Below are positions 6,198 through 12,566 of a DNA stretch of 64,000 nt, in pieces; the first letter of the stretch is position 1, and every line of letters begins with the position of its first letter. The notes beneath the pieces were generated by a model. The model was not told the DNA's origin. It saw nothing but the letters and a program-made list of their open reading frames with translations, and made no database searches. This stretch comes from Geodermatophilus obscurus (GTDB lineage Bacteria; Actinomycetota; Actinomycetes; Mycobacteriales; Geodermatophilaceae): contig NZ_FRDM01000015.1 in NCBI RefSeq assembly GCF_900143215.1, forward strand, positions 1 through 64,000, in the 5' to 3' direction. The translations under genes were made by a program, and so were the position numbers.

Positions 6198-7205
6198 TCA
6201 GTTGCCGCTGGCGAAGGCTGCGTCGAAGGCGGCCGCGGGCGGGTCGAAGGCCAGCCGGCGCACGAACGCCAGCGCCTCGGGTGCGCCGACGAGGCGGTCC
6301 ATGCCGGCGTCCTCCCACTCGACCGAGATCGGCCCGTCGTAGCCGATCGTGTTCAGCATCCGGAAGCAGGCCTCCCACGGGACGTCGCCGTGGCCGGTGG
6401 AGACGAAGTCCCAGCCGCGCCGCGGGTCGGCCCAGGGCAGGTGCGACCCCATCCGGCCGTTGCGGCCGTTGCCCACCTGCTTCTTCGCGTCCTTGCAGTC
6501 GACGTGGTAGATCCGGTCCTTGAAGTCCCAGATGAACGACACCGGGTCGAGGTCCTGCCAGACGAAGTGGCTCGGGTCCCAGTTCAGCCCGAACGCCGCC
6601 CGGTGCCCGATCGCCTCCAGCGTGCGCACCGTCGTCCAGTAGTCGTAGGCGATCTCCGACGGGTGCACCTCGTGCGCGAAGCGGACCCCCACCTCGTCGA
6701 AGACGTCGAGGATCGGGTTCCACCGGTCGGCGAAGTCGCGGTAGCCGTCCTCGACCATCGAGTCGGGCACCGGCGGGAACATGGCCACGGTCTTCCAGAT
6801 CTTCGACCCGGTGAACCCGACGACGACGTCCACGCCGAGCCTGCGCGCCGCCCGTGCGGTCAGCTTCATCTCCTCGGCCGCCCGCTGCCGCACGCCCTCG
6901 GGCTCGCCGTCGCCCCACACCCGGGCGTTGACCATGCCCTTGTGCCGCTCGTCGATCGGGTCGTCGCAGACGGCCTGGCCGTGCAGGTGGTTGGAGATGG
7001 CCCACACCTCCAGGCCGTACTTGTCCAGCAGCGCGAGGCGCTCCTGCACGTAGGAGTCGTCGTTCGCGGCGCGCTCGACGTCGAGGTGGTCGCCCCAGCA
7101 GGCGATCTCCAGGCCGTCGTAGCCCCACTCGGAGGCGAGCCTGGCCACCTCCTCGAACGGCAGGTCGGCCCACTGGCCGGTGAACAGGGTGACAGGGCGG
7201 GGCAT
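6198..7205 (-). CDS. Sugar phosphate isomerase/epimerase-like TIM barrel
   Basis: 335 aa, full-length xylose-isomerase-like TIM barrel. It starts [20 protein letters not shown] and shows the divalent-metal ligands of the family in AHEVHPSEI (Glu), LNWDPSHF (Asp, His), YHVDCKDA and SVEWED (Glu). The family isomerises, epimerises or cleaves keto-sugars and inositols. It is the last gene of the sugar locus, behind the Gfo/Idh dehydrogenase, which suggests it acts on that enzyme's oxidised product. Substrate unknown. Confidence 0.85.
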
Positions 7206-7238
7206 CGCAGGGTGTCCTTTCGTCCGATGAGCAGTGAT

Positions 7239-7296
7239 GGCCTCGTCCCGGGCACCGCCCCGAGCCTGCGGGGGGTGGGGAGGACGAGGTCCTTTC
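7239..7296. repeat. Partial copy of the dispersed GC-rich repeat
   Basis: Shares GGCCTCGTCCCGGGCACCG and GGGGAGGACGAGGTCCTT with the copies at 32650 and 61958. It lies between two co-directional genes, ending at the stop codon of the upstream dehydrogenase gene. Confidence 0.6.
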
Positions 7297-8460
7297 TCAG
7301 ATCTCGGTCCACACGGACCGGGCGGCGGCGCTGCGCTCGACGGCGTCGAGCACCCGCTGCACCTGCAGCCCGTCGGCGAAGGACGGCGTGGGGTCCTCGC
7401 CCTTGGCGATGGCGGTGACCAGGTCGACGACCTGGTGGGTGAAGCCGTGCTCGTAGCCCAGGCCGTGCCCGGCCGGCCACCAGGCGCCGACGTAGGGGTG
7501 GTCGGGCTCGGTGACGAGGACGCGCCGGAAGCCCGCGGTAGCGGCCGGCTCGTCGCCGTCGAAGAACTGCAGGACGTTCATGTCCTCGAAGTCGAAGGCC
7601 AGGCTGCCGCGGGAGCCGTTGACCTCGATCCGGATGGCGTTCTTGCGGCCGAGCGCGAAGCGGGTCGCCTCGAAGCTGGCCAGCGCCCCACCGTCGAAGC
7701 GGCCGAGGAAGACCGCGGCGTCGTCCACCGTGACCGTGCCGGTCCCCTGCCCGGCCACGCCGGAGAGCGACCCCTCGGACGCCGGCAGCGGCCGCTCCTC
7801 GACGAAGGTCTCCAGCAGCGCGCTGACCCCGGTCATCCGCTGACCGGTGATGTGCTGGGTGAGGTCGACGATGTGCGCGCCGATGTCGCCGAGCGCGCCG
7901 GAGCCGGCCCGCTCCTTCTGCAGCCGCCACGACATGGGTGCGGCGGGGTCGGCGATCCAGTCCTGCAGGTACTGGGCTCGCACGTGCCGGATCTCGCCGA
8001 GCCGGCCCTCGGCGACCAGCTGCCGGGCCAGGCCGATGGCCGGGACGCGGCGGTAGGTGAAGCCGACCATCGACCGGACGCCGCGCTCGGCGGCGCGGGC
8101 GGCGGTCTCGGCCATCGCCTCGGCCTCGGCCACCGTGTTGGCCAGCGGCTTCTCGCAGAGCACGTGCTTGCCCGCCTCGAGCGCGGCGATCGCGATCTCG
8201 GCGTGGGTGTCGCCGGGGGTGCAGACGTCCACGAGGTCGACGTCGTCGCGCTCGAGCACGCGGCGCCAGTCGGTCTCGGTCGACGTCCAGCCCAGCCGCC
8301 CGGCGGCGTCGGCGACGCGGACGGCGTCCCGGCCGGCCAGCACGGTGAGCTCGGGACGCAGCGGCAGGTCGAAGAAGTGAGGGGCGGTGCGCCAGGCCTG
8401 GGAGTGCGCGGCGCCCATGAAGGCGTAGCCGATCAGGCCGACGCCGAGGGTCGGGGTCAT
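7297..8460 (-). CDS. Gfo/Idh/MocA-family NAD(P)-dependent sugar dehydrogenase
   Basis: 387 aa. N-terminal Rossmann fold with [19 protein letters not shown] and the family's EKPLANT motif (near residue 102), which carries the catalytic lysine; the C-terminal alpha/beta domain contains [10 protein letters not shown] with the usual His. These enzymes oxidise sugars or inositols, often at C3 or C1. It sits between the ABC transporter genes and the TIM-barrel isomerase in one minus-strand unit, so the imported sugar is the likely substrate. Confidence 0.9.
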
Positions 8461-8526
8461 GCGGTCTCCTCACGGGAGTCGCCGGGGGACGGCGCGCCGT
8501 CCCCCGGCGACCGGCGTGTCAGCGGG

Positions 8527-9669
8527 TCAGGACTCGAACGCGGCGTCGATGTACTGGTCGACGTTGTCGGCGGTCACGACGGGGGCGTCGAGCACGATCC
8601 GCTGCGGCACCCCCTGCGAGGAGAGGTCGGACAGGCTCTTGCCCTGCACGATGAGCCGGGCGAGCGCGATGCCGTCCGCGGCCTGGGTGTGCGGGTAGAT
8701 GACCGTCGCGTCGAGCACCGACTGGCCGCCCTGGATCTCGCGCATCGCGTTGGCCGACCCGGCGCCGCCGACCATGACGAACTCGTCCCGGCCGGCGTTG
8801 TTGATGGCGGCCAGGACGCCGACGCCCTGGTCGTCGTCGTGGTTCCAGATGGCGTCGATCTGCGGCGCGGCCTGCAACAGGTTGGCCGCGGTCCGCTCCC
8901 CGCCCTCGACGGTGAAGTCCGCCGCCACGCGGTTGTCCACGTTGAGGCCGCATTCGGACAGCGCGTCGGCGAAGCCCTGGCTGCGGTCCTGCGTCAGCGG
9001 CAGCGAGTCGATGCCGGCGATCTCCGCGACGACGGCGTCGGGCTTGTCGCCCACCTGCTCGCAGATGTACTGGCCGGCCGAGACGCCCATGCCGTAGTTG
9101 TCACCGAGGATGGTGGCCTGGGCGGCGAACGGGCTGTTGAACTCGCGGTCGACGTTGATGACCGGGATGCCGGCCTCCATGGCCCGCAGCGCGACCGGGG
9201 TCAGCGCGGCGCCGTCGAAGGGCAGCAGCACGATCGCGTCGACGCCCTCGTTGATGAACGTCTCGACCTGGCTGATCTGGGTGCTGACGTCGTTGGTGCC
9301 CTCGGCGATCGAGAGCTCGACGTCCTCGTAGCCGTCGGCCTCGGCCTGGGCGGCCTGGCTGATGCCGGCCATCCAGCCGTGGTCGGCGGCCGGCGCGGAG
9401 AACCCGATGCGCACCGTCTCGCCGGCCTCGTCGTTGGGGCTGGCGGCCTGGCCGCCGCCCCCGCCACCGCCGCCGCCGGCGCTCTCGGGGGTGTTGCTCG
9501 TGCAGCCGGCGACCAGGACGCCGGCGCCGAGGACGGCGAGCGCGGTCGACGTCACACGACGCCCTCGGACCCGGCTCCGCGAGCCGGTCCGCTCCTCGCT
9601 CGTTCCTCGCTGCGATGCTCCCGGCTCTGTCGCCGGGCGACGGAACGGGCGCTGCCTCGCTGCAGACAT
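8527..9669 (-). CDS. Sugar ABC transporter substrate-binding lipoprotein with repeat-derived N-terminus
   Basis: 380 aa. Periplasmic-binding-protein type I fold, as in RbsB/XylF (KTVRIGFSAPAADHGW-like start, INVDREFNSPF, GGAGSANAMREI). The lipobox is LVAGC (Cys at about residue 55), followed by a Gly-rich linker. ATG 9669 has an excellent RBS (GAGGAGAGAAC just upstream), but residues 5-39 are an unusual Arg-rich stretch (QRGTSEERTGSRSRVRGRR) encoded by a palindromic repeat. A GTG at about 9553 would give a normal signal peptide but lacks a good RBS. Works with the adjacent permease and ATPase. Confidence 0.88.
   Translation of the reverse strand: MSAARQRPFRRPATEPGASQRGTSEERTGSRSRVRGRRVTSTALAVLGAGVLVAGCTSNTPESAGGGGGGGGGQAASPNDEAGETVRIGFSAPAADHGWMAGISQAAQAEADGYEDVELSIAEGTNDVSTQISQVETFINEGVDAIVLLPFDGAALTPVALRAMEAGIPVINVDREFNSPFAAQATILGDNYGMGVSAGQYICEQVGDKPDAVVAEIAGIDSLPLTQDRSQGFADALSECGLNVDNRVAADFTVEGGERTAANLLQAAPQIDAIWNHDDDQGVGVLAAINNAGRDEFVMVGGAGSANAMREIQGGQSVLDATVIYPHTQAADGIALARLIVQGKSLSDLSSQGVPQRIVLDAPVVTADNVDQYIDAAFES
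9561..9625. repeat. Palindromic repeat inside the signal-peptide region
   Basis: Contains the near-perfect hairpin GGACCCGGCTC/GAGCCGGTCC (9567-9577/9581-9590) followed by GCTCCTCGCTCGTTCCTCGC. On the minus strand it encodes GASQRGTSEERTGSRSRVRG in frame with the binding protein. I recall similar Arg-rich peptides from other GC-rich actinobacterial proteins, which would make it a dispersed element; this needs a search. Confidence 0.55.
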
Positions 9670-9763
9670 GTTCTCTCCTCGGGTATCGCCTCCCTGGCTG
9701 TCGTCGGCCAGGTGGTCGGGGTGGTGCGGTGGTGCCGGTCCGGGACAGCTGCCCCGGGCCGCG

Positions 9764-10930
9764 TCAAGGGCGGTCGGTCGTCGCGCCGGGCGCGGGGCCG
9801 CCGGGGCCGCCGGGGGTCGCGCCGCCGGAGACCGTGCCGGCCGCGCCGGCCGGGGCGGGCGGGCTGCCGCCGTCGGATCCGCGGCCGAGCCGGCGCAGGC
9901 TGAACGAGCCGGTGGCCAGGCGCATCTGCAGCAGGACGGCGACGACGATGATCACGCCGCGGGCGACGGCCTGGGCGGAGCTGGACAGGTTGTTCAGCGT
10001 GAAGACGTTGCCGAGCGTGGTGAAGATCAGCACGCCGAGGACGGTGCCGACGATCGTGCCGCGGCCGCCGATGAGCAGCGTGCCGCCGATGACCACCGCG
10101 GCGATCGCGTCCAGCTCGTAGAGCGTGCCGTGGGTGGAGCTGCCGGTCGTCGTCCGGGCCATGAGCATGACGGCGGCGATGCCGCAGGTGACGCCGGAGA
10201 GCACGTAGAGCCACATGGTGTGCCGCTGCACCCGGATGCCGGCCAGCCGGGCGGCCTCGGCGTTGCCACCGACGGCGAAGGTGCGCCGGCCGAACGTCGT
10301 CCGGTTGAGCAGCACCCACCCGGCGACCGCGACCAGCGCGAAGATCACCACGAGCGTGGGGACGCCGAGGACGTCGCCGGAGAAGAAGGCCAGGAAGTCG
10401 CGGTCCTGCACGATCTGGGTGCGCCGGTTGGCGATGATCTCGGCCAGGCCGCGGGCGGCCGCCAGCATCGCCAGCGTCGCGATGAAGGCGACCAGCTTGC
10501 CGTAGGCGATGACGATGCCGTTGACCAGCCCGCACCCGGCTCCCACCAGGAGCGCAGTGACCACCATGACGATCCAGTGGAAGTCCGCCGCCATGGCCTG
10601 GGTGGCCAGCGTCGTCGCCCACACCGAGGACAGCGCCACGATCGCGCCGACGGACAGGTCGATGCCACCACCGATGATCACGAAGGTCATGCCGATGCTG
10701 ACCACGCCGATCACGGCGGCGCCCCGCAGGATCGTCAGCACGTTGTCGACGTCGAGGAACCGGTCGGGGGCGGTGGCGGTGCCGACGACGCAGAGCACCA
10801 CCAGGGCGACCACGAGGCCGAGGTTGCGGCCCACGGGCCCGGCGAGGAAGCCGGGGCCGCTGCGGCGCGCTGCCGCGCCGGACGGCTGCCGCGGGGCGTC
10901 GGTCCCCGTCGTCACGGTCGTGCTGCTCAT
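9764..10930 (-). CDS. Sugar ABC transporter permease (RbsC/XylH-like)
   Basis: 388 aa, about ten membrane segments. The family signatures are VVSIGMTFVIIGGGIDLSVGA near residue 75 and GGTLLIGGRGTIVGTVLG late in the protein. A Gly/Pro-rich tail of about 45 residues after the last helix is longer than usual. It forms the membrane channel with the ATPase encoded upstream and the binding protein downstream. ATG 10928-10930 is chosen because GAGGGACG precedes it; the start is embedded in a 14-bp duplication. Confidence 0.92.
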   Translation of the reverse strand: MSSTTVTTGTDAPRQPSGAAARRSGPGFLAGPVGRNLGLVVALVVLCVVGTATAPDRFLDVDNVLTILRGAAVIGVVSIGMTFVIIGGGIDLSVGAIVALSSVWATTLATQAMAADFHWIVMVVTALLVGAGCGLVNGIVIAYGKLVAFIATLAMLAAARGLAEIIANRRTQIVQDRDFLAFFSGDVLGVPTLVVIFALVAVAGWVLLNRTTFGRRTFAVGGNAEAARLAGIRVQRHTMWLYVLSGVTCGIAAVMLMARTTTGSSTHGTLYELDAIAAVVIGGTLLIGGRGTIVGTVLGVLIFTTLGNVFTLNNLSSSAQAVARGVIIVVAVLLQMRLATGSFSLRRLGRGSDGGSPPAPAGAAGTVSGGATPGGPGGPAPGATTDRP

Positions 10931-10954
10931 GCCACGTCCCTCATGCCACGTCCC
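10927..10954 (-). repeat. 14-bp tandem duplication at the ATPase/permease stop-start junction
   Basis: GGGACGTGGCATGA occurs twice head to tail on the minus strand. The first copy holds the ATPase stop (GTG GCA TGA), the second the permease start (ATG AGC). The ATG in the first copy opens a five-codon ORF (M-R-D-V-A-stop) whose TGA overlaps the permease ATG. Confidence 0.9.
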
Positions 10955-12512
10955 CTTCGCGCTGTGCGTGTGCGGCGCCATGGGCGGCCGCCTCCTCCAT
11001 GACCAGGTCGAGCACGCGGTGCTCGTCGAGCGCGCCGGCCGGTTCCTCCGCCAGCACGCGGCCGTCGCCGATCACCAGGACCCGGTCGGCCAGGCCGAGC
11101 ACCTCGGGGATCTCGCTGGAGACCACGACGACGGCCACGCCGCGGTCGGCCAGCCCGCGGATGAGCGCGTAGATCTCCGACCGGGCGCCGACGTCCACGC
11201 CGCGGGTGGGCTCGTCGAGCAGCAGCACCCTGCAGTCGCGCAGCAGCCACCGGGCCAGCACGACCTTCTGCTGGTTGCCGCCGGACAGCGTCCGGACCTC
11301 CCGGTCGACGTCGGCCGGCCGGACCTCCAGCGCCGTCACCTGCTGCCGGGCGGCCTCGGCCTCGGCGGACCGGGACAGGAACCCGGCGCGGGCGAACCGG
11401 TGCAGGCTGGACAGGCTGATGTTCCGGGAGATCGACTCCCCGAGCAGCAGGCCCTGGCTCTTGCGCTCCTCGGGGGCCAGGCCGACGCCGGCGGCGACCG
11501 CGGCGGCGACGTCCCCCGGGCGCAGCCGCCGGCCGCCGACCCGGACGGTGCCGGCGGTCGGGCGGCGGGCGCCGTAGACGGCCTCGAGGATCTCCGAGCG
11601 CCCGGAGCCGACCAGGCCGGCCAGGCCCACGACCTCCCCCGGGCGGACGGTGAACGAGACGCCGGCGAAGGAGCCGCGCAGCCCCAGCCCCTCGACCTCG
11701 AGCAGCGGGGCGGCGTCGGGGTCGGGGTGCTCGCGCCGCTCGGGGAAGACGTACTCGATGTCGCGGCCGGTCATCAGCGTGATGACCTCGCGCGTCGGGG
11801 TCTCGCGGGCGGGCAGGCCGGTGGCGACGGTGCGGCCGTCCTTGAGGACGGTGATCCGGTCACCGACCTCGCGGATCTCCTCGAGGCGGTGGGAGATGTA
11901 GACGACGGCGACGTCGTGGGCGGTGAGGTCGCGGATCACCGCGAACAGCCGCTCGACCTCCTCGCTGTCCAGGACGGCCGACGGCTCGTCCATGATGATC
12001 AGCTTCGCGTCCTGGGAGAGGGCCCGGGCGATGCTGACCATCTGCTGGGCGGCCGCAGACAGGGAACCGACCTCCGCGGTGGGCCGGATGTCGGCGTGGC
12101 CGAGGCGCTCCAGCAGCCGGGCGGCGGCTCGGTTCGCCGAGGACGGCCGGGTGAGCCCCAGCCGTGCGTGCTCGCGGCCGAGGAAGACGTTGTCGGCGAC
12201 GGTGAGGCCGGCGACCAGGTCCAGCTCCTGGTAGATGGTCGCGATCCCGAGCGACATCGCCGCCTGCGGGTCGGCGAGCCGGACGGGCTCCCCCCGCCAG
12301 CTGATCCGGCCGGCGTCGGGCTGGTGCGCCCCGGCCAGCACCTTGATCAGCGTCGACTTGCCGGCGCCGTTCTGGCCGAGCAGGCAGTGCACCTCCCCCG
12401 CCCGGACGTCGAGGTCGACCCCGTCCAGCGCCCGGACGCCCGGGAACGACTTGACGACTCCGTGCACCTCCAGCAGAGGAGGCACCCCGGCGCGGGGAGG
12501 AGGGACAGCCAC
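10941..12512 (-). CDS. Sugar ABC transporter ATP-binding protein, two nucleotide-binding domains
   Basis: About 523 aa. Domain 1 has Walker A GQNGAGKST, signature LSAAAQQ and Walker B LIIMDEP; domain 2 keeps LSGGNQQK and LLLDEPTRGVD but its Walker A is degenerate (GLVGSGRSE), exactly as in RbsA/MglA/XylG. It drives the sugar importer with the next two genes. Start: GTG 12512 has GGTGGT upstream; a GTG at 12542 would add ten residues. A good promoter lies upstream. Confidence 0.92.
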   Translation of the reverse strand: MAVPPPRAGVPPLLEVHGVVKSFPGVRALDGVDLDVRAGEVHCLLGQNGAGKSTLIKVLAGAHQPDAGRISWRGEPVRLADPQAAMSLGIATIYQELDLVAGLTVADNVFLGREHARLGLTRPSSANRAAARLLERLGHADIRPTAEVGSLSAAAQQMVSIARALSQDAKLIIMDEPSAVLDSEEVERLFAVIRDLTAHDVAVVYISHRLEEIREVGDRITVLKDGRTVATGLPARETPTREVITLMTGRDIEYVFPERREHPDPDAAPLLEVEGLGLRGSFAGVSFTVRPGEVVGLAGLVGSGRSEILEAVYGARRPTAGTVRVGGRRLRPGDVAAAVAAGVGLAPEERKSQGLLLGESISRNISLSSLHRFARAGFLSRSAEAEAARQQVTALEVRPADVDREVRTLSGGNQQKVVLARWLLRDCRVLLLDEPTRGVDVGARSEIYALIRGLADRGVAVVVVSSEIPEVLGLADRVLVIGDGRVLAEEPAGALDEHRVLDLVMEEAAAHGAAHAQREGDVA

Positions 12513-12566
12513 TGCGACACCACCCAGACTTCTGCTCAACACTGACCATTAGTCGGCTGAGGCGAG

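Follow-up and report, generated by a model that had tools for sequence, protein, structure and literature searches.

A probable in-frame insertion of a dispersed, structured repeat into the signal peptide of a Geodermatophilus obscurus lipoprotein

Does the sugar-binding lipoprotein encoded within a 64,000-nucleotide stretch of the Geodermatophilus obscurus genome (hereafter the window) carry a mobile repeat inside its own signal peptide, and is that repeat translated? On the minus strand at 9553-9669, an RBS (GAGGAGAGAAC) is followed by an ATG at 9669, and an extra stretch, which a sequence-only reading had taken for an inserted palindromic repeat, lies between this start and the signal core. 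Re-reading of the sequence recovers all of these elements as described. The N terminus of the protein is MSAARQRPFRR-PATEPGASQRGTSEERTGSRSRVRGRR-VTSTALAVLGAGVLVAGC, where PATEPGASQRGTSEERTGSRSRVRGRR represents 27 extra residues (one Arg can be counted on either side) and VTSTALAVLGAGVLVAGC is the signal core. The features of the locus are:

8527..9669, minus strand: sugar ABC transporter substrate-binding lipoprotein (Peripla_BP_4), 380 aa, start ATG at 9669; from the ORF, PF13407 (E 3.4e-42) and orthologues
9637..9669, minus strand: ancestral n-region codons, MSAARQRPFRR; conserved with few changes in L033, L034 and other orthologues
9638..9642, minus strand: left CGTCG, 5-bp direct repeat, putative target duplication; single copy at empty sites
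9562..9637, minus strand: inserted repeat element, 76 bp, oriented as the gene; without counterpart in orthologues except L032, with dispersed copies
9632..9637, minus strand: outer stem 5' arm CCCGGC, helix 1 of the covarying structure
9588..9619, minus strand: conserved core and apical loop, AGCATCGCAGCGAGGAACGAGCGAGGAGCGGA; near-invariant among family copies
9570..9575, minus strand: outer stem 3' arm GCCGGG, helix 1 of the covarying structure
9557..9561, minus strand: right CGTCG, direct repeat copy, from the comparison of filled and empty sites

Filled and empty sites in the lipoprotein gene

Orthologues of the lipoprotein were taken from the genome collection and aligned at the insertion site. 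The empty site in G. siccatus, G. poikilotrophus and G. pulveris reads ...CGCCCGTTCCGTCG/TGTCACGTCG..., with the slash marking the point of insertion, and the further orthologues in the alignment (members of Geodermatophilus, Blastococcus and Modestobacter) likewise have no extra DNA at this site. Among the aligned orthologues, 81 extra bases are present only in this genome and in G. africanus (L032), arranged as CGTCG, element, CGTCG. This comparison bears out the proposal that an element entered between the start codon and the signal core with the frame intact; the extra in-frame DNA, first put at about 65 bp, in fact amounts to 81 bp, that is, the 76-bp element at 9562-9637 and the 5-bp direct repeat CGTCG. 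The gene stayed open and gained 27 residues because 76 + 5 is divisible by three and the element is free of stops in that frame. The last codon of MSAARQRPFRR takes its third base from the first base of the element, while the Arg-Arg pair ahead of the hydrophobic core is rebuilt by the duplicated CGTCG.

Target-site duplication, a trait of MITEs, is seen at the window site as CGTCG, and other sites of the family show longer repeats with ambiguous edges. That outer arms are copied from the target in every case is questionable: at the window site the arm CCCGGC was brought by the element and is not derived from the target, and at L015 the edges are ambiguous. We note, against the insertion reading favoured below, that the 5-bp repeat is short and comes from one event, and that at some other loci the empty state could reflect deletion rather than the pre-insertion sequence.

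A codon-usage gene finder places the start of the gene past the insert (8527-9555), and family copies are frequently intergenic; both would suit a true start inside or after the insert, such as the GTG at 9553-9555 (minus strand), with the element acting as an untranslated regulatory structure in the 5' leader. However, the RBS and ATG are kept in orthologues without the repeat, which start at that same ATG with MSAARQRPFRR and not at the GTG, and the insert is open and in frame in both species that carry it. In G. africanus, and likewise in L033-L035, the closest three of the orthologues with an empty site, the triplet is GTC, and the GTG itself was rejected as a start. We consider such a downstream start quite improbable. 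Since the RBS, the start codon and the first 11 residues are identical with or without the insert in the orthologue alignment, the insert is most simply read as translated.

A dispersed family with covarying stems

Searched against this genome, the insert yields 62 matches at E<=10 and 44 at E<0.01, itself included, so the suspected repeat is indeed not unique. Several tandem arrays of family copies (on contigs C24, C12, C41 and C48) are built of units of 76-83 bp. Contigs C13, C14, C53 and C105 end within or beside element copies and, consequently, the copy number in the draft is probably underestimated. At another locus (L017, G000:C52:21340-21450), a tandem array of a 27-bp piece of the core (GAGGGAGCATCGCAGCGAGGAACGAGC) lies beside a fuller copy.

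Within Geodermatophilaceae, 96 of 115 genomes contain the core pattern AGCATCGCAGCGAG-N(0-12)-GCGAGGAGCG, and the reversed-pattern control gives no match; of 395 other Actinomycetota in a phylum-wide sample, 0 contain it. L289 and L291, from single genomes of a neighbouring family in the order, were shown by a covariance model to share this core; the core is therefore strongly enriched in Geodermatophilaceae and not strictly confined to them. All nine sampled genomes of one genus (g8, G076-G084) are without exact core matches, which other genera of the family have; this genus may have lost the element or may never have been invaded.

The copies are not placed at random. A same-strand gene stop lies within 60 bp upstream of the core in 82 of 135 first-in-array copies as compared with 198 of 1350 random positions, and this stop is TGA in 77 of the 82; the counts are approximate, as genes were called by a simple codon-usage score. 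Fifty-seven of the stops lie at exactly 13, 16 or 18 bp from the core (TGACAG, TGACGACAG, TGAGCGGACAG), and it follows from this fixed register that the stop codon is part of the outer arm or abuts it. Some other copies extend to start codons. A literature search found no description of the Geodermatophilaceae repeats, and both the family and its registration with stop codons appear to be undescribed.

Structural analysis of the copies reveals two stems whose arms vary between copies yet stay complementary, with nearly invariant loops. Copies for this analysis were chosen solely by the core, GACAG and a GCGG-type box, so that pairing was not a criterion. Across 113 distinct copies, the outer stem forms 5.55 of 7 pairs (3.87 +/- 0.09 with shuffled partners) and the inner stem 4.77 of 6 (2.89 +/- 0.11). 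When 30 copies are aligned without gaps, 95.6% of cells are paired against 75.3% after shuffling, the score is 0.563 against 0.161, both sides have changed in 11 of 13 pairs, and the pairing signal is gone once the structure is slid by a single column. Kinship among copies inflates the shuffled controls, whereas the sliding control retains it. The palindromic structure suggested by the sequence-only reading is therefore upheld by covariation over many copies but not by single-RNA folding, in which the 151-nt region shows no unusual stability (z = -0.93). A search of Rfam returned chance matches only and no family at its cut-off (gathering score). The covariation of the arms may originate from templated correction, selection on the transcript, or exchange between copies.

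Comparison of loci shows that several other copies are absent from close relatives. An NAD-glutamate dehydrogenase has at its N terminus a copy (G000:C107:49253) that is read in the window copy's frame (LTDPGASQRAPASEERTGSRKPASGHRRL); this genome and G. siccatus (G511) carry it, and G. africanus (G510) and G. poikilotrophus (G512) do not. A third copy lies at the start of a phytochrome-like protein (G000:C83:168054, L003, and L184). In G. africanus it is read through, in another frame, as the N terminus (MTPIEHAAPDDSRGSTAVRDERGADRG...), but in this genome the frame set by the ancestral ATG is stopped by a TGA within the element; consequently, the start of the protein here must have moved or its N terminus is broken. 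A scan of 163 distinct copies for mid-gene in-frame cases, with coding sequence on both sides, gave one antisense candidate (L145), the filter being blind to N-terminal cases such as the window copy.

Relation to REPs, RPEs, MITEs and MIRUs

Short palindromic repeats that are sometimes read in frame are a known kind of element, described from Rickettsia, as REPs and as MITEs (PMC10969869, PMC3733652, PMC5896051). REPs are palindromic and lie beside gene ends, their termini can provide stop codons, and some are located within ORFs (PMC3733652). The element resembles them as a short palindromic repeat that adjoins gene ends and at times lies inside ORFs, and it could on these grounds be a REP moved by a RAYT/Y1 transposase. 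In contrast to REPs, the Geodermatophilaceae element is larger, the ends of its copies vary without a common invariant GTAG or CGTC tag, and the Y1 transposase domain (PF01797) is found in 0 of 115 genomes of the family by a search whose control was positive in E. coli. Mobilisation by a RAYT is thus hardly credible.

Rickettsia palindromic elements (RPEs), of about 150 bp, lie in ORFs in nearly half of cases and occur in frame in unrelated proteins (PMC10969869). Compared by description, the Geodermatophilaceae element is likewise a palindromic repeat found in frame in unrelated proteins, and in-frame insertion together with orthologues that have empty sites is seen in both the window gene and the glutamate dehydrogenase, but its coding insertions are rare and N-terminal. 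QMITE2 of Coxiella is non-coding, carries direct repeats, lies often 3' of genes and is occasionally inserted in frame in ORFs (PMC5896051). The element shares these properties with QMITE2 and similar bacterial MITEs at half the size of QMITE2 or less.

Compared by published description, the element is MIRU-like: MIRUs are mobile, insert at start codons and have a -4 nt overlap there (PMC12548453), measure 40-100 bp (PMC2734929) and occur in units of 77 bp (PMC4213456). Like these, the Geodermatophilaceae units fall within 40-100 bp (76-83 bp), are both dispersed and arrayed in tandem (period about 77-83 bp), are located between co-directional genes, abut stop or start codons and are apparently mobile. 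Unlike MIRUs, they mainly adopt a TGA-stop register and not ATGA starts, their core is partly different, their nested stems covary, and they can enter coding sequence, as the window copy does.

The covariance model also extends to diverged members, which occur in further families of the order and, outside the order, in a few genomes of the class. One large genus from another family of the order (presumed Mycobacterium) has relatives in 26 of its 118 sampled genomes. These units mostly have the core AGGATCGCAGCGAG...GCGAGGACCGGA; some repeat in tandem with a spacing of about 77-81 bp, and for many the boundary is an ATGA or GTGA at the start of the downstream gene, the 4-nt ATGA start overlap being observed at L288, L297, L300 and L306. 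In this, the units of the large genus fit the published description of MIRUs. At L288 (G439:C11:708600-709000), four tandem ATGA-bounded units lie upstream of a YvcK-like gene, and each can be read as a short ORF with a 4-nt overlap with the next start.

A broader reading, which we put forward tentatively and regard as doubtful, is that all of these belong to an actinobacterial family of mobile hairpins homologous to MIRUs, whose outer arm includes the stop of the host gene, whose 3' arm is altered so as to pair with it (through templated copying at the time of insertion or through selection for mRNA structure at gene ends), and which occasionally makes new N-terminal segments. The locus leads to a structured repeat family, linked to stop codons and spread over Geodermatophilaceae, that is apparently related to MIRUs. 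MIRUs serve in the strain typing of tuberculosis. The many lineage-specific insertions and empty sites make movement of the element testable by comparison.

Origin and effect of the insert

We therefore favour, with a probability of about 0.9, the reading that a dispersed, MIRU-like structured repeat, moving as a mobile repeat, inserted at codon 11 in an ancestor and was tolerated. In the proposed course of events, a copy would have entered the lipoprotein gene in an ancestor shared by this strain and Geodermatophilus africanus, leaving the frame open and adding 27 hydrophilic, Arg-rich residues. With removal of the n-region at the lipobox Cys, the mature lipoprotein would be the same as before, which may account for the tolerance; cleavage is predicted from the lipobox, and export with a 38-residue n-region is likewise presumed. 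The element itself would be a selfish or mildly functional mobile repeat, whose usual landing place is at gene ends (TGA).

The two species that carry the insert allow its constraint to be compared with that of the rest of the gene. Between this genome and G. africanus, the first 11 codons show no change, the 27 codons of the insert 3 replacement and 1 silent changes, and the remaining 342 codons 5 replacement and 19 silent changes. Replacements have accumulated faster in the insert than in the body (3/27 versus 5/342 codons; Fisher p = 0.015, from few substitutions). To judge from these sequences, the added peptide does not look to be under constraint, which is what one would expect of a segment lost with the signal peptide.

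An adaptive insertion, in which the long Arg-rich n-region alters targeting or a hairpin in the early mRNA tunes expression, could draw on the retention of the insert in two species and on the composition of the first 39 residues (11 Arg/Lys, 3 acidic). Yet the protein changes faster in the insert than elsewhere and the outer 3' arm is substituted in G. africanus, so that neither peptide nor hairpin looks constrained; we regard adaptation as unlikely. The effect of the insertion is likely neutral, since the 27 extra residues sit in the n-region and are presumably removed at maturation.

In sum, a mobile structured repeat has genuinely entered a signal peptide in frame, most likely with a neutral outcome. 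The case is clean and datable, and in it non-coding mobile DNA has turned into protein sequence at a place where the protein can bear the change. The initial interpretation of the locus is supported as essentially right; what lay beyond its view is that the element is a family-wide, covarying, stop-codon-associated repeat.

As to the lipoprotein's own context, its 3' neighbour in the same direction encodes a Gfo/Idh/MocA dehydrogenase whose best likeness, under that model's cut-off, is to levoglucosan dehydrogenase. The operon at 6198-12542 of the window comprises this levoglucosan-dehydrogenase-like enzyme (below cut-off), the binding protein, a permease and an ATPase, and its substrate may be levoglucosan or a related sugar.
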